Program-made: the position numbers and the translations under genes | NCBI GenBank assembly: GCA_013151775.1 | Contig: JAADHO010000256.1 | Span: 1 to 55,206 of the forward strand | Reading direction: 5' to 3' | Source: Deltaproteobacteria bacterium | GTDB taxonomy: Bacteria > Myxococcota_A > Polyangia > Polyangiales > Houyiibacteriaceae | DNA: 55,206 nt | Shown: positions 28,968-49,330 of the stretch, piece after piece | How positions within the stretch are numbered: position 1 is the first letter of the stretch | Layout: every line of letters begins with the position of its first letter | The notes under the pieces: model-generated | Told to the model about the DNA's origin: nothing | Seen by the model: the letters and a program-made list of their open reading frames with translations, nothing else | Database searches by the model: none

Positions 28968-29375
28968 TCAGCCTTGGTGGCCGAAGTGGTGGCGGATGTA
29001 GGAGAGGGCGTCCTTGCGCTCCTGCTCCGTGAGGGTGTCCTTCCAGGCGGGCATCACCTTGCCGTTGCGGTTGATGCCGTTGGCGATCTCGCCCAAGAGC
29101 ACGTCGTTGCCCTTCTGCAAGCGCTCGGGCTCACCGATGAAGTTACCGCCGGTCATGCCGCCGTTGCCCGTGCCGTCGGCGCCGTGGCAGGCCAAGCAGT
29201 TGGCCGTGTAGATGGCCTCACCGGCGGCCGCGTCGCCGGGCAAGGAGATGTCGGCAGCTGGCGCTTCGGGCGCTTCGGTCGCGCTTCCGCCGGCGGCGTT
29301 GCCACCCGAGGCTTCTTCGCCTCCACAGGCGAGAGCGAGGGTGCTGAAGAGAGCGAGGGTGAGTAGTGTACGCAT
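28968..29375 (-). CDS. Lipid-anchored mono-heme cytochrome c, last gene of the nos operon
   Basis: 135 residues from the ATG at 29375. The lipobox is A-L-A-C (Cys about 17), followed by a Gly/Ala/Glu linker. The heme site is NCLACHGADGTGNGG, and a distal Met follows in NGKVMPAW. The C-terminal helix ERKDALSYIRHHFG is typical of class I c-type cytochromes. It follows nosL by 56 nt on the same strand. A role as periplasmic electron donor to NosZ or NosR is inference from context; such cytochromes accompany nos clusters in several phyla. Confidence 0.8.
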   Translation of the reverse strand: MRTLLTLALFSTLALACGGEEASGGNAAGGSATEAPEAPAADISLPGDAAAGEAIYTANCLACHGADGTGNGGMTGGNFIGEPERLQKGNDVLLGEIANGINRNGKVMPAWKDTLTEQERKDALSYIRHHFGHQG

Positions 29376-29431
29376 GTTGTTGTCCTGTGGTCGGTTCGGG
29401 GCAGCGGGTTGTGGGTTCAGGGCCGAGCGTG

Positions 29432-29947
29432 TCACTCGGCGCGGGAGAGGGCGGCTTTGACACCCTCGAAATCTGTGACTTGGGCGTGAAGACGTTCGGC
29501 TGCGCGCTGCGCGGCGGCGCCTGTGGCGAAGGTGAGCACGGGCTCTCCCATCACCGGTCGATGCAGCTCGCCATATACGAAGCTGACCTGATCGGCAGGA
29601 CGCATGGGCTTGGCGTCAGTGCTGAGATCGTCCGGCGTGGCGTCGTCTGCCATCACCTCCACATAGATGGCGACGGGATGCCCATGTGGGCTGGGCGCCT
29701 CGAGGTAGGTGACGAGATCCGCGATGGAGCAGAAGAACGCGCGCTCTCCGTCGCGATGCACGAGCTCGGCGCGGGGCGCGGGCTGCTCGCGCAAGATCAT
29801 GCCGCAGGTCGAACACTCGTGCTCAGCGATGGGCACGCTCTCGGTGTTCACGGGCGCCTGATCAGCCTGCTTCGAGCCACACGCAGCGATCAGAAAGAGC
29901 GCCGAGCACGCCGCGACTCGCTGGAAGTCTCGCATGCCTCGCGTCAT
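29432..29947 (-). CDS. nosL: NosL, copper chaperone lipoprotein for N2O reductase
   Basis: 171 residues. A lipoprotein signal ends L-I-A-A-C (about residue 23). The Cu(I)-binding motif ECSTCGMIL is followed by aromatic and acidic strands (RAFFCSIADLVTYLE) and the C-terminal NosL repeat (VLTFATGAAAQRAAERL). NosL holds Cu(I) in the outer membrane or periplasm and delivers it to NosZ with NosDFY. The start at 29947 overlaps the nosY stop by 4 nt (ATGA), which fixes both genes in one operon. Confidence 0.9.
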   Translation of the reverse strand: MTRGMRDFQRVAACSALFLIAACGSKQADQAPVNTESVPIAEHECSTCGMILREQPAPRAELVHRDGERAFFCSIADLVTYLEAPSPHGHPVAIYVEVMADDATPDDLSTDAKPMRPADQVSFVYGELHRPVMGEPVLTFATGAAAQRAAERLHAQVTDFEGVKAALSRAE

Positions 29948-30753
29948 CGCAGGACTCGTTTCCTGGCCAAGATCAGCGCGCTCAGAAGCGTCGGCCCAAT
30001 GACCCAGGCGGCCCAGATCAAGGCGCGCTGCGCGACGCTCGGTAGCTCGACGGATAGGCCCAAATCGGAGAGCGCTTGACCGCCGAGCAGGGACTGCATC
30101 ATGGCCACACGATAGAGCCCCGCGGGGTTCGCGACCACCAGATGGGCGATGGTGTTCTCGGAGACGCCGCCATCGCTGGCGACCAGCAGCCCGAGCAAGC
30201 CTAGGTCATAGAAAAACACCAGGCCGAACCAGACCACGACCACCATGCTCGCGGCCACGGATTGACGCGGCGCCAGGGTCGAGAGCAGCAGCCCGATGGC
30301 GAGGAAGGCGAGCCCGAGGAGCAGCGTGGGCAGCATCAGAGAGATCAGCACGCTGCGCTGAGCACTGCCCGCGAAGGCGATGGCGGTGCCCATGCCCAAG
30401 GCCACCGAGAGCGCCAAGGCGGCGCCTCGTCCGATGAACTTGGCGAACACGACCTCGGTGCGGCTCACGGGCATGGAGAGCAGCAGCCCCAAGGTGTTGC
30501 GCTCGCGCTCGCCGACGATGGCGTCGTGACTGAGCACCAAGGCGACCAGCGGAACGAAGAGGCTGGCGAGGGTGACCAGGCTCGGTCCCGTCAGCGCAGC
30601 TCCGGCCGCTGCCTCCCCGTGACCTCCAGCGCTTCCGTAGGCGGAGACCGCCGAGGCCATGGCCGCGAAGAGCACGCTGACGACCAACACCCAGCGGTCG
30701 CGGGTGCGCTCGAGCAGCTCATGCCACATCAAGGCGCGGGCGACCCGGCTCAC
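29944..30753 (-). CDS. nosY: NosY, ABC permease of the N2O-reductase maturation complex
   Basis: 269 residues from a GTG at 30753 that overlaps the nosF stop (GTGA). Six membrane helices are visible. The cytosolic loop HDAIVGERERNTLGLLLSMPVSRTEVVFAKFIGR is the NosY/ABC-2 signature. With NosF it uses ATP to drive conformational change in periplasmic NosD, needed for assembling the CuZ cluster of NosZ. The length is as in Pseudomonas stutzeri NosY. Confidence 0.92.
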   Translation of the reverse strand: MSRVARALMWHELLERTRDRWVLVVSVLFAAMASAVSAYGSAGGHGEAAAGAALTGPSLVTLASLFVPLVALVLSHDAIVGERERNTLGLLLSMPVSRTEVVFAKFIGRGAALALSVALGMGTAIAFAGSAQRSVLISLMLPTLLLGLAFLAIGLLLSTLAPRQSVAASMVVVVWFGLVFFYDLGLLGLLVASDGGVSENTIAHLVVANPAGLYRVAMMQSLLGGQALSDLGLSVELPSVAQRALIWAAWVIGPTLLSALILARKRVLR

Positions 30754-31661
30754 GCTGCGCCTCGCTGCAAGAGCGCCTCGTAGACCTCGTCCATGCCGGG
30801 CTCCTCCACGCGCAAGGAGCGCACGGCGCCGGGCAAGTTGGCGCGCAAATCCATCAGATCGAGCAGGTCCTCGGTGGAGACCGAGACGCGCACGATGCCG
30901 TCCTCGCGGTCGAGCTCTGCGCGTCCCCAGCGCTCGATGCGCTCGGCCACCTCGTCGATGCGATCGTCGACCACCTCGAAGGTGACCGTCAGCGGCAGGC
31001 CCACCTTGCGACGCAGCCCCGAGGGCGAGTCGAAGGCGACGCGTCGGCCGGCGTCCAGCACACACACGCAGTCGACGCGGCGCTCCACCAAGGTGAGATC
31101 ATGGGTCGCCATGATCACGACCCGTTCGGACTCGCGCCACTCGCTCAACACGCTCCAGAGCAGCTCCAGACCCTCTTGATCGAGTCCACCGGTGGGCTCG
31201 TCGAGGACCAAGAGCGCGGGCTCGGTCAGGATCGCTACGGCGATGCCGAGACGCTGGCGCATGCCGCGCGAGTAGCCTCGCACACGGCGGCGGGATGCCT
31301 GGGTCAAGCCCACGCGCTCGAGCACGGCGTCCACGCGCTTGCGATCGACGCCACGCGCTTGGGCAAAGAAGCGCAGCACCTGAGAGCCGGTGAGGTTCTC
31401 GCTGAAGGCCACCGCCTCGGGCAGATAGCCGAGCTGAGCCTTGAAGCGGTGATTGACCTGCGTGGCCACGTCGTCGACCAAGAGCTGCCCCGAGCTCGGG
31501 CGCACGAGGCCCAAGAGCACGCGCATGAGCGTGGACTTCCCGGCGCCGTTCGGCCCGGCGAGCATCAGCACCTCGCCAGCGCTGGCACGAATCGAGACGT
31601 CGATCAGCGCCTTCAGCTTCCCGAAGCTCACGCCGACCTCTTCGAGCACGACCGACTTCAC
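30750..31661 (-). CDS. nosF: NosF, ATPase of the N2O-reductase maturation complex
   Basis: 303 residues. Walker A GPNGAGKST, Q-loop LGYLPEAVAFSENLTG, signature YSRGMRQRLGIAVA, Walker B LLVLDEPTGGLD, switch His in ATHDLTLVE. A ~85-residue C-terminal extension follows, as in NosF. It overlaps nosD by 4 nt at its start and nosY by 4 nt at its end. Confidence 0.93.
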   Translation of the reverse strand: MKSVVLEEVGVSFGKLKALIDVSIRASAGEVLMLAGPNGAGKSTLMRVLLGLVRPSSGQLLVDDVATQVNHRFKAQLGYLPEAVAFSENLTGSQVLRFFAQARGVDRKRVDAVLERVGLTQASRRRVRGYSRGMRQRLGIAVAILTEPALLVLDEPTGGLDQEGLELLWSVLSEWRESERVVIMATHDLTLVERRVDCVCVLDAGRRVAFDSPSGLRRKVGLPLTVTFEVVDDRIDEVAERIERWGRAELDREDGIVRVSVSTEDLLDLMDLRANLPGAVRSLRVEEPGMDEVYEALLQRGAA

Positions 31662-32890
31662 GACGCACCCGCGACGTCGCCGACGAGAGGAGCGCGATCC
31701 TCGACCGTGGGAACCCGCAGGATCGGCATGCGAGCCGAGAGCCGTGAGAGCAGCTCGAGCACCGGGCTACGCATCAGCAGCACAGCGGCGGGAAAGCGAT
31801 GCATCAGGTTCGCGGTGAAGCTGTCGACGCGGTAGGGCCTGTCGCCGACACCGTCGCCATCCTGATCCCAGCCGATGTAGTCGCTGTAGTAGTTGCCGCG
31901 CCCCGCCTCGCCCCACACGAGGTCGTGGTTGCCGACGTAGAAGACCTGCTGTCGGTTGCCGACGAAGCGGTTGCCGCGCACGAGGTTGTCGACGCTACCC
32001 GCCCAGATCTTCGCGCCGACGCCGTTGTGGAGCATCAGGTTGTCTTCGATAGTGTTGTGCACGGAGGAGAAGAAGAACATGCCCTGGCCGTTGCGCGCGA
32101 GGTGGTTGTCGCGGATCTGACAATGCTCGGCGTCACGGAAGAGCAGGCCGACGTTCTGGTTGTCGTCCGCCGTGTTGTCCTCGACCACCAGGTCGTGGCT
32201 CTCCATCAGCGCGAAGCCGCCGCCATTGCCATTCGCGACGTTGCCCCGGATGGTGTTGCGATAGGAGTACATGTAGTGGACGCCGTAACGCATCCCGTGC
32301 ATGCGGTTGCCTTCGATCAGGCTGTCCTCCGTGGCCGAGACGTAGAGGCCGTCGCGCGCGCCCTCGATCCGGTTGCCTCGAATGACCAGATGGCTGGCGT
32401 CGAAGAGCTGAATGCCGTTGCCGCGATCCGCGACTCGCACGTCGGCGCGTCCGATGATGTGGTTGTCGAGAAGCTCCACGCGTGGCGTCGTGTGCACCCA
32501 GATACCGAAGGCGCAGTCGCGAACCAGGTTGCCGCGCACCACGGCGCCCACCGCGCTTGGCTCGATGTAGATGCAGGCGTCGGGCCCGCTGATGTTCGAG
32601 CCGCTGCCCTCGATCGTCAGCCCTTCGACCACCACGCCGGGCGCGATGATCTCGATCACCCGCCCCTCGCCACCTCCGTCGATGGTGCCTTCGCCGCGCA
32701 GGGTGATGCGCTTCTCGATGCGGATGCGGCCCGGCCACTCGCCGGCGGGCACCTCCACCACGTCGCCGTCGTTGGCCAGGGCGATGGTGTCTGCGAGGCT
32801 GCGCCCGCCGTCGCCCACCCGTAGGGTCTCCGCTCGAGCGGAAGAAGCTGCGAGCAACAGGACACAGGCGCTGGCGAGGACGGTCTTCAT
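31658..32890 (-). CDS. nosD: NosD, periplasmic beta-helix protein for CuZ assembly
   Basis: 410 residues with a Sec signal peptide (MKTVLASACVLLLAASSARA). The mature protein is a right-handed parallel beta-helix made of ~20-24-residue rungs with N-x-I-x-G-N/D patterns (LVIRGNRIEGARDGLYVSATEDSLIEGN). It ends with the NosD tail YYSDYIGWDQDGDGVGDRPYRV. NosD receives copper (and sulfur) handed over from NosL and works with NosFY. It overlaps nosR and nosF by 4 nt each. Confidence 0.93.
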   Translation of the reverse strand: MKTVLASACVLLLAASSARAETLRVGDGGRSLADTIALANDGDVVEVPAGEWPGRIRIEKRITLRGEGTIDGGGEGRVIEIIAPGVVVEGLTIEGSGSNISGPDACIYIEPSAVGAVVRGNLVRDCAFGIWVHTTPRVELLDNHIIGRADVRVADRGNGIQLFDASHLVIRGNRIEGARDGLYVSATEDSLIEGNRMHGMRYGVHYMYSYRNTIRGNVANGNGGGFALMESHDLVVEDNTADDNQNVGLLFRDAEHCQIRDNHLARNGQGMFFFSSVHNTIEDNLMLHNGVGAKIWAGSVDNLVRGNRFVGNRQQVFYVGNHDLVWGEAGRGNYYSDYIGWDQDGDGVGDRPYRVDSFTANLMHRFPAAVLLMRSPVLELLSRLSARMPILRVPTVEDRAPLVGDVAGAS

Positions 32891-34992
32891 CTGGGCTTCG
32901 CGTCGTCTCGCAGCTGCAGGAGACGCTCTTCATCATGCGTCGAGAGCTTGGCCGTGGCCTGCTTGGTGAGCAAGCGCTCGATACCGATCAGCGGAGGGCA
33001 CTGCTGCTCGTTTCGGTAGCTGGCCTCGCAGTCCATGCACGAGAGACACTCGCGTGGATCGATGGTGCCGTCGGGCCGAATGGCCTTGGGCTCGCAGTTC
33101 CGAGTGCAGATCGTGCAGCTCTCGCAGAAATTCCTGCGCCGTGGCCCTGAAAAACGAAAGCTGTTGAAGATGGCAAGGCCCGCACCGAGTGGACAGATGT
33201 AGCGACAGAACGGCCGGAAGGTGAAGATCGACCAGACGAAGAGCAGGATCCACCACCCGGCGAGGTACCACTGCCGCGTCCAGAAGGGCACGAGGAAGGT
33301 CGACTTGAAGGGCTCGATCTCCGCGAGCTTCTCGCCCAAGACGGAGTCCCAGAGGAAGATGGGGATGAGCGCGAGCAGGATGAAGTAGCGCAGGAATCGC
33401 GCCTTCTCGTGGATGCGCTCCGGAAACTCGAACTCGGGGATATGCAGCTTGATCGCCACGAGTCGCAGCAGGTCGGTCATGGTCCCGTAGGGGCAGACCC
33501 AACCGCAGAACAAGCCACGGCCCCAGATCAGCGAGGCGATGAAGGTGAAGATCCACAGGAGAAAGATCAGGGGCTCGCTCGCGAACAGCTCCCATCTCCA
33601 CTCGTGGAGCAACGAGTCCACGAGCGTGAGCAACTGCGTGACGGAAGGCTGCGCCTTCATCGCGAAGCCGACCCCGAAGACACCGATCAACATCGAGATG
33701 GTGTGCAGTCGCTTGATGCGCTTCGGATCCGCCGTGGTCCAACTGCGCCCGATGAAGACGCTCACGACGAAGAGCAAGTAGAGGCCGAGGGCGAGGGCTC
33801 CGTAGCGATGGTTCAGCCACGCCTGCTGCCAGATGGAGAGCTCGGGGCGATCGAGCACGTAGACCGAGGTGGGCATGACGTGCTCGGCGTGGAACTCGTG
33901 GAAGTCGCGCGTGAATCCGCCCTGACCGTTGTACCGGCTGCCCAAGAAGACGAGCTCGAAGGGGTGTCCCGGATCGAGCGGCCCACCACGCGTGATGAAC
34001 ACACCACCCTCGCGAAAACGTGGTGCATCGGGGGCCGCGAGTCGACCGAGGTTGTGGTAGTCGAGATCGCGAAACACGACATCGTTGAAACCTTGTTCCA
34101 TGTGAACACGGTCGAAGATTCCGCCTCGAACGAAGGCGGATCCCTTGTAGGAGCTCGAGCCGTTGCCGAGGATCACGACCAGATGCTGCCCAGGCTCGAG
34201 CAGGCCCATCTCGAAGGCGTAGTCGTTGTCGCCGAGCAAGGCGCGACCGACCTGCGGTGCGTCGGCGATGGTGAACCAGAGGTCGACGAAGTTGCCGCGA
34301 GGGTTGGGCACCTCCATCTGGGCCTGGGTCACGGTCAGTCGGCCGAAGACGCCCTCCTCGATCATTCGTGCCCAGCTCCAGGCTGTCGGCTCGTTGATGA
34401 AGTGTCCGGGAGAGACGACGGAAGCGTCGATCACACCCACGGCGACTCCGAGCGCGCGGCTGGCGTCGAGGATGGTCTTGTTTTGCGCCAAGGCCGTGAC
34501 CGTGGCGCCGCTGATCACATCGAGGGAGACGTCGTCGGGATCAGAGGACTCGCCGACCACGATGGTGTCGATCGCACGATGCCCAGGGTATTGCGCCACG
34601 AACTCGTGCAGCTTGCGCTCCGGGATGCCGACCAAGAGCACAGGCTCGCTGTGGTGGATCACGCGTGCGCCTGCGATCACGCCGTCCGGCGTCAGGCCGA
34701 TCACGGTGGCCAGAGGCTTGCCCGAGTAGGCCTTGACGTCGACCACGGTGTTGGAGAGCACCACCCAACCGACCGCGGCACCTGTGGCGTCGAAGCCCTG
34801 CACGAAGGGCGCGCCTTCCACCGGCTCGAAGCGAGTCGCGCCTGGCAGCACCTCGGTGCAGGGCATGGTCTCGCAGTCGAGCGCCGTCGGAGCTGCGTCG
34901 TGTCGGTACTGGGCCGCCGCCGGAGCGACGACCCAGCACATGATCACGAAGGTAGAGAGGGCGAGAAACGCCGAACTTCTAGTCGAACTCAA
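32887..34992 (-). CDS. nosR: NosR, membrane flavin/iron-sulfur protein for N2O respiration
   Basis: 701 residues from a TTG at 34992, which places the signal peptide (ending PAAAQ) at the true N-terminus. The periplasmic FMN-binding domain has ISGATVT near residue 163 for covalent flavin attachment. Six membrane helices follow, with CGWVCPYG and CRYICPLG (C-x3-C-P motifs) between them. The C-terminal cytosolic ferredoxin-like part has CESCTICTRNCEP and CLSCMDCEAS...CPP for two 4Fe-4S clusters. NosR feeds electrons to NosZ and is needed for its expression and maturation in clade-I systems. An ApbE-type flavin transferase (NosX) is not in this window. It starts 55 nt after nosZ, an unusual order. 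Confidence 0.94.
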   Translation of the reverse strand: MSSTRSSAFLALSTFVIMCWVVAPAAAQYRHDAAPTALDCETMPCTEVLPGATRFEPVEGAPFVQGFDATGAAVGWVVLSNTVVDVKAYSGKPLATVIGLTPDGVIAGARVIHHSEPVLLVGIPERKLHEFVAQYPGHRAIDTIVVGESSDPDDVSLDVISGATVTALAQNKTILDASRALGVAVGVIDASVVSPGHFINEPTAWSWARMIEEGVFGRLTVTQAQMEVPNPRGNFVDLWFTIADAPQVGRALLGDNDYAFEMGLLEPGQHLVVILGNGSSSYKGSAFVRGGIFDRVHMEQGFNDVVFRDLDYHNLGRLAAPDAPRFREGGVFITRGGPLDPGHPFELVFLGSRYNGQGGFTRDFHEFHAEHVMPTSVYVLDRPELSIWQQAWLNHRYGALALGLYLLFVVSVFIGRSWTTADPKRIKRLHTISMLIGVFGVGFAMKAQPSVTQLLTLVDSLLHEWRWELFASEPLIFLLWIFTFIASLIWGRGLFCGWVCPYGTMTDLLRLVAIKLHIPEFEFPERIHEKARFLRYFILLALIPIFLWDSVLGEKLAEIEPFKSTFLVPFWTRQWYLAGWWILLFVWSIFTFRPFCRYICPLGAGLAIFNSFRFSGPRRRNFCESCTICTRNCEPKAIRPDGTIDPRECLSCMDCEASYRNEQQCPPLIGIERLLTKQATAKLSTHDEERLLQLRDDAKPR

Positions 34993-35047: not shown

Positions 35048-36985
35048 TCAGCGTGGTTCGACGATCATACGGCCACGCATCTCGAGGTGCAGTGCGTGAC
35101 AGAACCACGGACAGTAGTACCAGAACAGCCCCACCTTATCGGCGGTGAAGGTCATGCTCTGTGTGCCCTGAGGGTTGATGCCGAAGTTGACGTCGTGGTT
35201 CGTCACGCAGACGCCGTGGGAGAGGTCTTCGACATCGTCTTGGTTGGTGTCGATGATGGTGACGATGTCGCCCTGCTTGACGCGGAACTCCGTCATGCCG
35301 TAGGCGGGCGCGCGGCTGGTCATGTAGACGCGCACGTGGTTGTCGTCCTTGCGCACGACCCGGTTGTCCTGCATCAGGTTGATGCCATCTTCCTCCGCCC
35401 AGGCGTTGATCTGCGTGTAGCGAGGCAGATCGCGCGGATCGACGTTGACGGGGTGGATCAGCGACTTGTCGACGATCAGGGCGTCGTGCGGCTCGGAGTA
35501 GGTCGCGCCGTCATGAGCCAGGCGCATGCGCTCACCGCTGATGTCGATCAGCTGATCGTTCTCGGGATGGAGCGGACCCACGGGCAGGAAGCGATCCTTC
35601 GAGAACTTACACAGCGCGACGCACCACTTTCCGTCTGCGTTCTTCGTCTCGCTCATGGAGGCGTTGACGTGGCCGATCTGATAGTTGACATCGAGCTTTT
35701 GGATGATCGGATCGACGTCCTGTCCGCCGAACTTCTGGATCGCCTTCTCGATGTTCCACTTGGTCACGACCGAGTCGATGAAGATCGAGGTGTAGGCGTT
35801 TCCTCGACCGTCGAAGGCGGTGTGAAGCGGACCGAGTCCGACCTCGGGCTCTGCCACGACGCAGTCGCGCGGCTCGATGTCGCCAGCGAAGGCCTGGGCG
35901 ATCTTCTGGATGTCGACCACGGTGCAGGTGGGCGAGAGCTTGCCGGAGCAGATGGCGTAGCGGCCATCCGGCGAGATGTTCACGCCGTGGGGGCTCTTGG
36001 GCACGGGAATGCGCAGTACGAAGGGTCCGTTGTCACCGCGCGCGTCGACCACGGGCACGGGCGAGTCGCCGATGGTGGTGGTGTTGCCACCGGACACGGC
36101 GTTCTCGATGTTCTCGAGGTTGAAGACGTAGAGGTAGTCGCGGTCCGCGGCCATCATCTCCTCGAGCGTGACGCCGCCCTCGGAGTTGTAGCAACACGCG
36201 AAGGAGTACTTGCCCTCGTAGTCGGCGGCCGCGAGGTCGAGGTTGCCCTCGATCTGCACCTGCCACTTCACCTCCATGGACTCTCCGTCGATGGCCGTGT
36301 GAAGCGCGGAGTACTTGGTCTTGTCGTCCATGTCCGTGCCGTTGTTCGGCAAGGGCGCGCGGAACTCGCTGTTGCAGAAGACCAGCCCCGTGCGATGACG
36401 CTGGGGGAAGATGCCGTGGGTGCCGAAGCTGTTGGGGATGTCGACGATGGAGTCGACCTCCATCAGGTCGAGACGGATGCGCGCCAAGCGGCCCTGGGCC
36501 TTGTCGTTCACGTAGGCGTAGCGACCGTCGTAGGTGCCGTCCGTGTAGGAGAGGTGAACGTGGTGCGTGTCGCCGCTGGAGCGACCCTTGAGCAGCTCCT
36601 TGGACCAGTCGGTCGCGCCCCAGCCCGTGGCCGCGTCGCGGTTGAAGACGGGGATGCGCTTCAGCTCACGCATGGAGGGGACGCCCAGGATGCGGACCTC
36701 GCCGGACTGACCGCCGCTCCAGATGCCGTAGTAGTCGTCGAGCTGTCCCGGCTCGACATCGGTGGAGAGGTGTCCCTCTCCCTCGGCGCCGGGGGTCTCG
36801 TCGGAGCCAGCGCCAGGCGTGGCCGCCTGGTTGGTGTCCGTGGCCGGACTCTCGTTGCCGCAGCCGATCATCTGCGCGGCGACCACGCCACCGCCGATAG
36901 CCAGGCCTGTCTTGGCAATGAAGCCCCGGCGACCAGGCTTGCTGGGCGCCTCGGGAGTCGTCTCGTCGTGGTTCTCGTCGCTCAT
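35048..36985 (-). CDS. nosZ: Nitrous oxide reductase NosZ
   Basis: 645 residues, preceded by AGAGGA. It reduces N2O to N2 in the periplasm. The N-terminus has a twin-arginine motif (GRRGFIAKTG, residues 18-27) and a hydrophobic stretch ending in M-I-G-C, so Cys42 could be lipidated. An acidic linker follows. CuZ ligands are visible as His141/His142 (GDTHHVH) and the His of GTHGIF, SPHGVN, PLHTAF, IGHVNA and EPHDAL. The CuA site is complete: His590 (SHGV), Cys625, Trp627, Cys629, His633 and Met636 in YYCPWFCHALHLEM. Tat export and a nosR partner suggest the clade-I type, but a tree is needed. It is the first gene of the operon and lies behind a sigma-54 promoter, divergent from a NorR-type gene. 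Confidence 0.96.
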   Translation of the reverse strand: MSDENHDETTPEAPSKPGRRGFIAKTGLAIGGGVVAAQMIGCGNESPATDTNQAATPGAGSDETPGAEGEGHLSTDVEPGQLDDYYGIWSGGQSGEVRILGVPSMRELKRIPVFNRDAATGWGATDWSKELLKGRSSGDTHHVHLSYTDGTYDGRYAYVNDKAQGRLARIRLDLMEVDSIVDIPNSFGTHGIFPQRHRTGLVFCNSEFRAPLPNNGTDMDDKTKYSALHTAIDGESMEVKWQVQIEGNLDLAAADYEGKYSFACCYNSEGGVTLEEMMAADRDYLYVFNLENIENAVSGGNTTTIGDSPVPVVDARGDNGPFVLRIPVPKSPHGVNISPDGRYAICSGKLSPTCTVVDIQKIAQAFAGDIEPRDCVVAEPEVGLGPLHTAFDGRGNAYTSIFIDSVVTKWNIEKAIQKFGGQDVDPIIQKLDVNYQIGHVNASMSETKNADGKWCVALCKFSKDRFLPVGPLHPENDQLIDISGERMRLAHDGATYSEPHDALIVDKSLIHPVNVDPRDLPRYTQINAWAEEDGINLMQDNRVVRKDDNHVRVYMTSRAPAYGMTEFRVKQGDIVTIIDTNQDDVEDLSHGVCVTNHDVNFGINPQGTQSMTFTADKVGLFWYYCPWFCHALHLEMRGRMIVEPR

Positions 36986-37014
36986 GGATTAGCCGTCCTC
37001 TCGGTAATGCAGAT

Positions 37015-37023
37015 GGGGGGGGG
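37015..37023. repeat. Nine-base homopolymer in the nosZ leader
   Basis: Nine Gs on the plus strand (nine Cs in the nosZ transcript), starting 29 nt before the nosZ ATG and inside the predicted 5' untranslated region. Tracts of this length can slip during replication or sequencing. Its effect on expression is unknown. Confidence 0.6.
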
Positions 37024-37025
37024 TC

Positions 37026-37042
37026 CGCCCACTCGGGGGGCG
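37026..37042 (-). other. Small hairpin at the predicted 5' end of the nos transcript
   Basis: A 5-bp GC stem (CGCCC/GGGCG) with a 7-nt loop sits at the start of the predicted nosZ leader, between the sigma-54 promoter and the C9 tract. It could stabilise the message; no known riboswitch is recognised. Confidence 0.25.
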
Positions 37043-37047
37043 CTGTA

Positions 37048-37062
37048 GCAAAGAGCGAGCCA
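37048..37062 (-). promoter_or_regulatory. Sigma-54 (-24/-12) promoter of the nos operon
   Basis: Read on the minus strand TGGCTCG-CTCT-TTGCT, against the consensus TGGCACG-N4-TTGCW: only one mismatch, with the GG and GC elements at exact spacing. It would start transcription near 37036, ~50 nt before nosZ. Sigma-54 promoters need an AAA+ activator, and one of the NorR type is encoded divergently next door. Confidence 0.75.
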
Positions 37063-37092
37063 TAAGCCAATCTCTGTGACCACGGGGGTTAC

Positions 37093-37109
37093 GTTGTGCC
37101 CGACACAAC
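37093..37109. promoter_or_regulatory. Probable NorR enhancer site
   Basis: Perfect inverted repeat GTTGTG-CCCGA-CACAAC whose centre contains GT-N7-AC (37096-37106), the core recognised by E. coli NorR. It lies about 30 bp upstream of the -24 element of the nos promoter and 49 bp upstream of the regulator's own ATG, so it could serve both genes. Confidence 0.55.
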
Positions 37110-37136
37110 CCGCCCTGTTGTCGTTTGCATATCCGC

Positions 37137-37147
37137 GTTGTAGGTAC
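37137..37147. promoter_or_regulatory. Possible second GT-N7-AC site
   Basis: GTTGTAGGTAC fits GT-N7-AC, 41 bp from the first site (centre to centre), close to the start of the NorR-type gene. It lacks the flanking symmetry of the first site and could be chance. E. coli NorR uses three such sites upstream of norVW. Confidence 0.25.
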
Positions 37148-37157
37148 GGCAACGCCC

Positions 37158-38669
37158 ATGCGAACGCTGCTCGACCTGACGGCCAGCCTGGCCAGCGCAC
37201 CCTCGACGGGTGCACCTCTCACGGAATTCGTTCGCGAGGTCGCTCGAGCCGTGGGCGCGGACGCCGTCGCCCTGCTGCGCTTGCTCGACGACGTGCTCTT
37301 CCCGGTGGCGACCTACGGCCTGGCGCCAGACTGCATGGGGCGCAGCTTTCCCCTCGCGGAGCACCCTCGCCTCGCCCATGGCATGAGCGATGGCGAGCCG
37401 TCTGTGCGCACGGACGACGACCCGGACCCCTTCGACGGCTTGCTCGAGCGGGATCCGGGCGCGGAGCTGCCGATTCACGCCTGCGTGGTCTGTCCGCTGA
37501 TCGTGGGGGGACGACCTGTGGGCGCGTTGACCTTGGACGCCCTAGATCCCGAGGCACTCGACTCCTTGGATGAGGCGAGCCTGTCGTTGGTCACCTCGCT
37601 GGCGGCCATGGCGCTCGAGACCCACGACCTGCGTCAGTCGTTGAACCGATGCTTCGAACGGCCGCCGACGCTGATCGAGGCGGCCTCCGATCAGCCCCTT
37701 GAGAGCGGGCGACTGCACGGCAACGGTCCCGCCATGCAGCGCGTACGGGCGGAGATCGAGCTGGTGGCGCGCTCCGACTACACCGTGATCGTCACGGGCG
37801 AGACAGGGGTCGGCAAGGAGTTGGTCTGCCGCAGCCTGCACCGCAAGTCCAAACGCGCGGCGGGGCCTCTCGTCTACGTCAACTGCGCAGCCCTGCCTCT
37901 GCATCTCGCCGAGAGCGAGCTCTTCGGACATGTTCGAGGCGCGTTCACAGGCGCCGAGGTGGATCGACGAGGGAAGTTCGAGCTGGCCCACGGCGGGACT
38001 CTCTTCCTCGACGAGATCTGCGAGCTCCCGCTCTTGGTGCAGCCGAAACTTCTCCGAGCGCTGCAGTCCGGAGAAATCCAGCGCGTCGGATCGGACGAGA
38101 TGCATGAGGTCGACGTGCGCGTGATCGCCGCCACGAACCGCGACGTCGAGAAGGAGGTCGAGGAGGGTCGCTTCCGAGCGGACCTCTTCCACCGGCTGAC
38201 GGAGTACCGCATCTTCGTGCCGCCTCTGCGCGAGCGCCGCGAAGACGTGCCTGTCTTGATGGGTCTCTTCGCCGAGCGTCACCAGCGCCGACTGGGCATC
38301 GGCCCCGTGCGTTTCGCCGAGAGCGCGAGGGAGCTGCTGACGTCGCTGGAGTGGAAGGGCAACGTGCGCGAGCTGGACCACACGCTGGGTCAGGCGATCT
38401 TGCGCTCGAGCGCGCGCTCCACTCCACGAGCGCCCGTGGTCGTCGACGCCACCGATTGTCGGCCGGGTTCACCCCTCACGACGGAGGACACGGGCTCACC
38501 AGCTTCCTTCAGGCCGCTGCGCGAGGCGGTGGAGGAGTTCAAGCGAGACCAGATCCGGCGCGCCGTGTCTGCACACGACGGCAACTGGGCCGCCGCCGCG
38601 CGGGCGCTGGGCATGCACCGCAGCAACCTGCACCATCTGGCCGAGCGTCTGGGACTCCGGGGCGGCTGA
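37158..38669 (+). CDS. norR: NorR-type nitric-oxide-sensing sigma-54 activator
   Basis: 503 residues from the ATG at 37158. The N-terminal GAF domain keeps all five residues that hold the mononuclear iron in E. coli NorR: Arg71 (HPRL), Asp90 and Asp93 (DPDPFDG), Cys109 (HACV) and Asp127 (TLDAL). The Cys-to-last-Asp spacing (18) is identical. The AAA+ domain (~190-420) has Walker A GETGVGKE and the sigma-54 contact loop GAFTGA. The Fis-type HTH ends the protein (NWAAAARALGMHRSNLHHLAERLGL). NO binding relieves GAF repression and allows ATP hydrolysis. No NO reductase or flavorubredoxin gene is adjacent; it is divergent from nosZ. The ligand set makes NO sensing likely, while control of nos is inference. 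Confidence 0.88.
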   Translation: MRTLLDLTASLASAPSTGAPLTEFVREVARAVGADAVALLRLLDDVLFPVATYGLAPDCMGRSFPLAEHPRLAHGMSDGEPSVRTDDDPDPFDGLLERDPGAELPIHACVVCPLIVGGRPVGALTLDALDPEALDSLDEASLSLVTSLAAMALETHDLRQSLNRCFERPPTLIEAASDQPLESGRLHGNGPAMQRVRAEIELVARSDYTVIVTGETGVGKELVCRSLHRKSKRAAGPLVYVNCAALPLHLAESELFGHVRGAFTGAEVDRRGKFELAHGGTLFLDEICELPLLVQPKLLRALQSGEIQRVGSDEMHEVDVRVIAATNRDVEKEVEEGRFRADLFHRLTEYRIFVPPLRERREDVPVLMGLFAERHQRRLGIGPVRFAESARELLTSLEWKGNVRELDHTLGQAILRSSARSTPRAPVVVDATDCRPGSPLTTEDTGSPASFRPLREAVEEFKRDQIRRAVSAHDGNWAAAARALGMHRSNLHHLAERLGLRGG

Positions 38670-47539: not shown

Positions 47540-49330
47540 CTACGCATCCGGCTCACGCTCGAGGTAGCGGAAGATGGTGCGTGGATCGACCCCGAGGTCG
47601 CGCGCCGTCTTCGTGCGGTTGCCGCCGTTACGATCGAGGATCTCCAGGATGTACTTGCGTGTGAAATCTTCGCGCGCCTCCGTGAGCGGCACGATGGACT
47701 CGAAGGCTCCCTCGGCCAGCTCGAGATCCTCGGCGCCGACCATGGTCTTGTCGGCGAGCACCAGGGCCTTCTTGATCCTGTTCTGCAGCTGCCGCACGTT
47801 GCCCGGCCACGAGTAGCGGCGCAGGCCCGCGAGCGCCCCGGGCGTGAACCCCTTCACCTTCACGCCGAACTCGGCGGCGTAGTTCTTGAGCAGGAAGCGC
47901 GCGAGCACGAGCACGTCGTCGCCTCGATCGCGCAGGGGCGGCAGGTGCAGGTTGATCACGTTGAGGCGGTAGAAGAGATCCTCGCGGAAGCGACCCTCCT
48001 TGACCTCCAACTCGAGGTCGCGGTTGGTCGCCGCCACGACGCGAATGTCGACCTTCTCGGGCTTGGCGTCGCCCACCTTCATCACCTCGCGCTCCTGCAG
48101 CGCGCGCAGCAGCTTCACCTGCAGCGTGAGGGGCATCTCGCCGATCTCGTCGAGAAATAGCGTGCCCGTGTCGGCGAGCTGAAAGCGTCCGGGGCGCGTC
48201 GCGACGGCTCCGGTGAAGGCGCCGCGCACGTGACCGAAGAGCTCCGACTCCATCAGGTTCTCGGGGATCGCTCCGCAATTCACCACTATGAAGGGCTTCT
48301 TCGCGCGCGACGATCGACGATGGACCTCACGGGCGATCAGCTCCTTGCCCGTGCCCGTCTCACCCGTGATCAAGACGCCGATATCCGTCGCGGCAACCTT
48401 CTCCACCTTGCGGAAGACCTCGAGCAAGCTCGGACAGCTTCCGATGATGTCGCCGAAGCGCTGCTCCTCGAGTTGATCCGCGAGCCGATCGCGGTCACTC
48501 CGAAGCTCATCGAGCAGGATGGCGTTCTGCAGGATCAACGACGCCTGCCCCGCGAAGATCGTGAGCACGTCGAGGCTCGACTCTTCGAACAGGCTGACCA
48601 CGTTGTCGTTGCCCACGTAGATCAGCCCGAGCAGCTGACCCTGCGCCATCAGAGGTGCGCACATCACGCTGCAGAGCTTCAGATCCATCACGCTCTCGGC
48701 GGTGCTGAACTGCGTGTCGTTCAGAGCGTCCGACACGATCACGGGCTTCTTCGTCTCGACCACTCGGCTCAGGATCGAGTCCGACAGCGAGTGCACACTG
48801 GTGGGCAGGCTCTGGCCATCCATTCCACGCGCCACCGTGACTCTGGGCTCGTCGCCATCGAGCATCAGCACGAAGCCCTTGGACGCCTGCGTGAGCTCGA
48901 TGACCGCGTCGAGCAACGCCTCGAGCTGCTTCGGGATGCGACGGATCTCGAGCAGGTGGCGGTTGAACTCGCTGAGCTTGTGCATGCCCGCGAGTTCGGC
49001 GGAGACGTCGGGGTGCTCGCCCTCCATGCCCGGACCGACCTCGTCGTAGACGGAGAAGACGAGCTCCGCCTCGCCCAGCTCGAGGCGATCGTTGTGGTAG
49101 ATCTTCGAGCGGCGTCGCTTCTTGCCGTTGACCACGACGTTGGCGCCCTTGGCGCCCTCGGCGAGGTTGAAGTCTCGTCCGTCGAACACGATCTGCGCGT
49201 GGAAATCGGCGACCGAGGCGTCCTCGATGCGCACATCGTTGCTGGCCCCGCGTCCGACGGTGGTGATCTTCTTGTAGATCGGGAAGACTCGGGGGCGACC
49301 CTGCTTCACGACCCATTTCAGGCTCGGCAT
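47540..49330 (-). CDS. Sigma-54-dependent activator with FHA and GAF sensory domains
   Basis: 596 residues. FHA domain ~1-100 ([24 protein letters not shown], a phosphothreonine reader), GAF ~130-285, AAA+ ~310-540 with GETGTGKE, the sigma-54 contact loop GAFTGA and [11 protein letters not shown], and a Fis-type HTH at the end ([23 protein letters not shown]). FHA-type activators are characteristic of Myxococcota and link Ser/Thr kinases to sigma-54 genes. Its targets are unknown. The two lipoprotein genes on the same strand are upstream of it in position but not clearly in the same transcript. A strong leaderless-type promoter precedes it. Confidence 0.9.

Follow-up and report, generated by a model that had tools for sequence, protein, structure and literature searches.

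What turns on nitrous oxide respiration in a bacterium whose nosZ gene stands back to back with a gene for a sigma-54 activator? The 55,206-nucleotide stretch of a deltaproteobacterial genome analysed here (the window) has this arrangement, and a first-pass annotation had pointed to a promoter and an inverted repeat between the two genes. The published nos controls in the open-access literature that we searched are of the CRP/FNR type, RegR or NsrR. No link between NorR and nosZ was found in that open-access literature.

A clade I nos operon divergent from norR

The minus strand of the window carries a nos operon of the clade I (TAT-dependent) type. Its first gene, nosZ (35048-36985), encodes a nitrous-oxide reductase that scores 898 bits against TIGR04244 (cut-off 625), and maturation genes follow. 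About 55 bp behind nosZ lies the gene for a NosR/NirI-like FMN and 4Fe-4S membrane protein (32887-34992) with Fer4_5 and FMN_bind domains, whose TransRegNosR score of 539 bits is under the 1000-bit cut-off. Next comes nosD (31658-32890; TIGR04247 392 bits, cut-off 300), which overlaps its neighbours by 4 bp. A nosF-like ABC ATPase gene (30750-31661) was assigned from ABC ATPase families and gene order, and genes for a nosY-like permease (29944-30753, start codon inferred) and a nosL-like protein (29432-29947) from open reading frame and gene order only. The last gene (28968-29435), a CxxCH open reading frame that overlaps nosL by 4 bp, was assigned by position and motif to a small c-type cytochrome (CLACH). 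Because the genes after the NosR/NirI-like gene have overlapping or nearly overlapping ends, one promoter could serve the whole set.

On the plus strand, norR (37158-38669) begins at ATG 37158 or TTG 37125 and encodes a sigma-54 activator with GAF, AAA+ and Fis-type helix-turn-helix domains (GAF, Sigma54_activat and HTH_8 in Pfam). The activator gene that the first-pass annotation had placed beside the promoter proved to be that of NorR itself, with a score of 588 bits against the NorR equivalog model of NCBIfam (cut-off 476). The six residues of the non-haem iron ligand set of E. coli NorR (R75, D96, D99, H111, C113 and D131) are all identical in the window protein, which is established as a NorR orthologue with conserved ligands, and the GAFTGA loop that contacts sigma-54 is exact. 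E. coli Y98 is a Phe in the window protein. R81, which in E. coli NorR is required for repression without NO, is a Ser, and off-state control may therefore differ; many different residues occupy this position among homologues, so it is not a conserved family feature. In a NorR tree the branch of the window protein is long and its partner uncertain, and for this reason we make no claim about the time or source of its arrival. The presence of rpoN was inferred from the roughly 40 full-length sigma-54 activators encoded in the genome. The window encodes one more sigma-54 activator domain, at 47948-48448 on the minus strand, within a 606-codon open frame.

A promoter element and a three-site array in the norR-nosZ gap

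The gap between norR and nosZ spans 172 bp (36986-37157). A sigma-54 (-24/-12) element, TGGCTCGCTCTTTGCT, occupies minus-strand positions 37062-37047 (TGGCTCG-CTCT-TTGCT) and points to nosZ. It matches 11 of 12 consensus bases, the single departure from TGGCACG-N4-TTGCW being a T for A, and both the GG and the GC are intact. The near-consensus site one base off consensus that the first-pass annotation had described is thus present, placed one base from its original coordinate. Transcription is predicted to start at about 37036, some 50 nt ahead of the nosZ start codon. The pattern TGGCNCGN4TTGCW has 15 matches genome-wide versus 8 for the reversed control pattern, so the promoter match alone is weak evidence. 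Within the gap a promoter this good appeared in 13 of 20,000 dinucleotide shuffles.

Upstream of this element lie three dyads of 17 bp each, all predicted NorR sites on the minus strand. Toward nosZ their order is GTTGCCGTACCTACAAC (distal, 37137-37153; GTTGC-CGTACCT-ACAAC, 9/10), GATATGCAAACGACAAC (middle, 37117-37133; GATAT-GCAAACG-ACAAC, 8/10) and GTTGTGTCGGGCACAAC (near, 37093-37109; GTTGT-GTCGGGC-ACAAC, 10/10), followed by the promoter. The steps are 20 bp (distal to middle) and 24 bp (middle to near), and the near site lies 54 bp from the GC element of the promoter; these sites and their spacing are established. The left half of the middle site (GATAT) is weak, and the distal site adjoins the norR start. 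The near site contains the perfect 6-5-6 inverted repeat with GT-N7-AC that the earlier annotation had noticed (GTTGTG-TCGGG-CACAAC, 37109-37093), and the 6.05 Mb genome has a single exact copy of GTTGTGN5CACAAC. The palindrome is therefore real, although it is not the lone site it had been taken for: it is one of three, those at 37117-37133 and 37137-37153 having been missed. No further dyad of similar strength was detected between the two genes, and searches of the gap for a sigma-70-type promoter, a terminator, a relaxed FNR box and a RegR box found none of these.

Might these matches have arisen by chance? The motifs are short and degenerate, as the reversed-pattern matches illustrate. When one mismatch is allowed, GTTGTN7ACAAC has 31 matches in the genome and its reversed control 23. 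Two of the 31 fall in the norR-nosZ gap, 44 bp apart, and no second array pair was found elsewhere in the genome. Within 500 bp of the single perfect sites at C274:10264 and C77:3256 there is neither a second site nor a sigma-54 site. When the gap was shuffled 20,000 times with its dinucleotides preserved, a palindrome this good was seen twice, the three-site array score at the allowed spacings was never reached, and palindrome and promoter never appeared together; the first-pass judgement that the pair had a low chance of coinciding was borne out. As the arrangement also agrees with that at orthologous loci, chance is extremely unlikely as an explanation.

The gap thus has the architecture of a NorR-controlled sigma-54 promoter, in which three tandem dyads precede a -24/-12 element that points away from norR. 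We assign a probability of roughly 0.85 to the reading that the gap is a complete NorR cassette directing NO-dependent sigma-54 transcription of the clade I nos operon.

The array and its targets in relatives and in known NorR systems

NorR orthologues were collected from 183 genomes of the order at a match threshold of E 1e-90. Matches were obtained in 21 other genomes, mostly at 51-57% identity. Among 20 neighbourhoods fetched, the gene divergent from norR was of the ytfE type with a CCGG motif in 9 and a quinol NO reductase (qNOR) gene in 4; the remaining neighbourhoods were cut off or not resolved. The same GTTGT-N7-ACAAC array, stepped by 19-21 and 24-26 bp, is present at about 10 of the orthologue loci together with a divergent sigma-54 site, and most NorR orthologues have an equivalent divergent site beside them. 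In its helix-turn-helix, window NorR shares the helix MHRSNLHHLA with orthologues that have GTTGT-N7-ACAAC sites, L171 and L175 among them. The distance between near site and GC element is mostly 60-66 bp in the orthologues; at 54 bp, the window gap falls short of this by about one helical turn. The cassettes of the order also differ from the window in their target, which is ytfE (iron-sulfur repair) or the quinol NO reductase and, in the loci examined, never nosZ. No other genome examined keeps norR beside nosZ, so the gap itself has no phylogenetic footprint; the window represents one genome in 460 contigs, and the relatives all come from one phylum.

NorR systems outside the phylum share much of this design. 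The E. coli norR-norVW locus, like the window, has a divergent norR, a sigma-54 promoter (TGGCACGCAATCTGCA), the GAF iron ligands and a three-site enhancer (PMC2941729), but its target is the flavorubredoxin NO reductase and its half-sites are unlike GTTGT. On Cupriavidus necator plasmid pHG1 the ytfE-norR gap holds three GGT-N7-ACC sites at steps of 19 and 26 bp, then a -24/-12 site, and the norAB promoter of this species is a known NorR target (PMC1274295). Here norR adjoins nosL, beside the nos cluster, yet faces ytfE-norB; nosZ is at the opposite end of the cluster and has no NorR or sigma-54 site upstream. Of four plasmid norR neighbourhoods examined, two have hmp opposite norR, one has ytfE, and pHG1 has ytfE-norB. 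The NorR sites of P. stutzeri hmp, at -192, -173 and -148, are likewise spaced by 19 and 25 (PMC1274295).

In a comparative study the NorR targets were norVW, norB, hmp, hcp, dnrN and nnrS, and nos genes were under DNR or NnrR, with NsrR in one case (PMC1274295). The usual target, an NO-removing or NO-defence gene, is replaced by nosZ in the window; targets of the usual kind characterise the known regulons (PMC1274295) and lie outside the NorR mechanism itself. The DNR, NnrR and FixK2 nos operons of Proteobacteria share with our reading the control of clade I nos by NO or low oxygen (PMC1274295, PMC5582078), but they use CRP/FNR-family regulators and FNR-type boxes. For B. diazoefficiens nosR, neither a -24/-12 nor a -35/-10 element was recognised.

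The sites might instead mainly autoregulate norR, with nosZ driven by another, unrecognised promoter. The distal site does touch the norR start, and in Vibrionales a lone NorR site without a sigma-54 promoter precedes norR2, for which negative autoregulation has been proposed (PMC1274295). In the window, however, the -24/-12 element faces nosZ, the near site stands at a distance from it much like that in relatives, and the gap yielded no sigma-70-like promoter. We regard autoregulation as the main role of the sites as unlikely.

NO-related genes elsewhere in the genome

Searches of the window genome for ScdA/YtfE, NirK and qNOR found none, which leaves nosZ as the only recognisable NorR target found. 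Given that orthologues normally face ytfE or qNOR, the array could be a relic that once served such an adjacent gene, nosZ having arrived by rearrangement and the link being unused. The state of the locus argues otherwise: the elements are as intact as in relatives (sites 10, 8 and 9; promoter 11/12), the NorR reading frame and ligands are intact, nosZ begins about 50 nt from the predicted transcription start, and a genome-wide search found no other array pair. A relic is quite unlikely.

The genome has one cNOR operon, on contig C309 (locus L196, 3271-9310), with norC, norB and norQ-like and norD-like genes. Divergent from norCB is the gene for a sigma-54 activator that has no GAF domain and whose N-terminus is Cys-rich (MECGSCEQACRVCGL). 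A sigma-54 site, TGGCACGGCGAGTGCT, faces norC, with TGTTCC/GGAACA half-sites alongside. The nearest orthologue of this activator (72%), in genome G131 (L271), is encoded beside a ytfE-like gene that has a 10/12 sigma-54 site and half-sites resembling those on C309. The Cys-rich protein is possibly a second type of NO-linked activator.

A dominant activator other than NorR, acting at a promoter that is indeed sigma-54-dependent and leaving NorR an auxiliary role, would be in keeping with this second, Cys-rich activator and with the sigma-54-like nosZ promoters of genomes that have no close NorR match. Against it, NorR is encoded adjacent to its full array, and the gap yielded no other dyad as strong as those of the array. 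We consider such an activator very unlikely at this locus.

Control of nosZ across the phylum

A sample of 377 genomes of the phylum contained 27 with clade I nosZ, and four more came from the search of the order. With window NorR as the tblastn query, no NorR-like gene was found in the flank of any of the phylum's 30 other clade I nosZ loci, and in 13 larger nosZ neighbourhoods nothing was found outside the window itself. Some loci were uninformative, either because the contig ends within 500 bp of nosZ (L202, L203) or because the nosZ start is missing (L017, L222).

A -24/-12 site with 11/12 or 12/12 matches lies within 250 bp of the nosZ start in 6 of 26 loci, window included. Shuffles predict 0.022 such sites, and the reverse strand and 332 coding pieces gave none. 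The view that a sigma-54-driven nos operon is unusual accordingly holds for the literature examined and holds less well for the phylum, where strong sites recur. In this sample the window stands alone in having NorR as the neighbouring activator, not in having a sigma-54 nosZ promoter. The other strong sites stand 46-113 bp before clade I nosZ at L209, L210, L211, L213 and L215, with no NorR nearby, and 10/12 sites occur upstream of nosZ at L205, L208 and L214.

Most genomes with a sigma-54-type nosZ promoter have no close NorR, so other activators must act there. Two candidate explanations were rejected. One is that NorR drives these promoters too: among their genomes it was found only in G392 and G396, at about 50% identity and facing ytfE. 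The other is that a different activator is encoded beside these nosZ genes: no GAFTGA-type motif was detected in 13 neighbourhoods.

Other motifs mark the nosZ upstream regions. An FNR-like TGACGTRGATCA box was found at L011, L014 and L015. The dyad TGCGRCR-N3-YGYCGCA, at 13/14 or better, precedes nosZ in 10 of 26 loci (0.07 expected), namely L011, L012, L013, L016, L202, L203, L204, L213, L215 and L216; it resembles a RegR/RegA box. A further dyad, CTGTGYC-N4-GRCACAG, lies upstream of nosZ at L211, L215 and L216, with a second, weaker copy in the last two, and is a candidate regulator site at these three promoters. Different lineages thus appear to have different nosZ regulators, the one in the window genome apparently being NorR.

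A probable NO switch for N2O respiration

Denitrification forms N2O from NO, and NO therefore makes biological sense as a cue for nosZ. We read the locus as one where a NorR cassette appears to have taken over a clade I nos operon. NorR would sit on the three tandem GTTGT-N7-ACAAC enhancer sites, and NO would bind the non-haem iron of the GAF domain and release the AAA+ ring. At the TGGCTCG-N4-TTGCT promoter the GAFTGA loop would then contact sigma-54 RNA polymerase, and transcription would start at about 37036 and continue along nosZ into the tightly spaced genes downstream. The known NorR mechanism (PMC2941729) is the model here for binding, the response to NO and the transcription start, and read-through along the operon is a prediction as well. 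On this comparison of sequences, a known NorR switch would have acquired a new target, nosZ, with NO as the inducing signal for N2O respiration.

More tentatively, and at slightly less than even odds, sigma-54 control of nosZ may be recurrent in the phylum by way of varied NO- or redox-linked activators. In the window genome NorR would have been reassigned from defence against NO to the respiration of N2O, with NO as an advance signal of N2O, and norCB would be under the separate, possibly NO-sensing, Cys-rich activator.

NosZ removes the greenhouse gas N2O, and the timing of its expression decides whether bacteria of soil and sludge are a source or a sink of this gas. If the nos operon is indeed driven by NorR, the removal of N2O would be coupled directly to NO by way of an ATP-driven promoter that is normally tightly shut. 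The recurrence of sigma-54-type nosZ promoters in the phylum makes nos regulation beyond the model proteobacteria testable by simple reporter assays.
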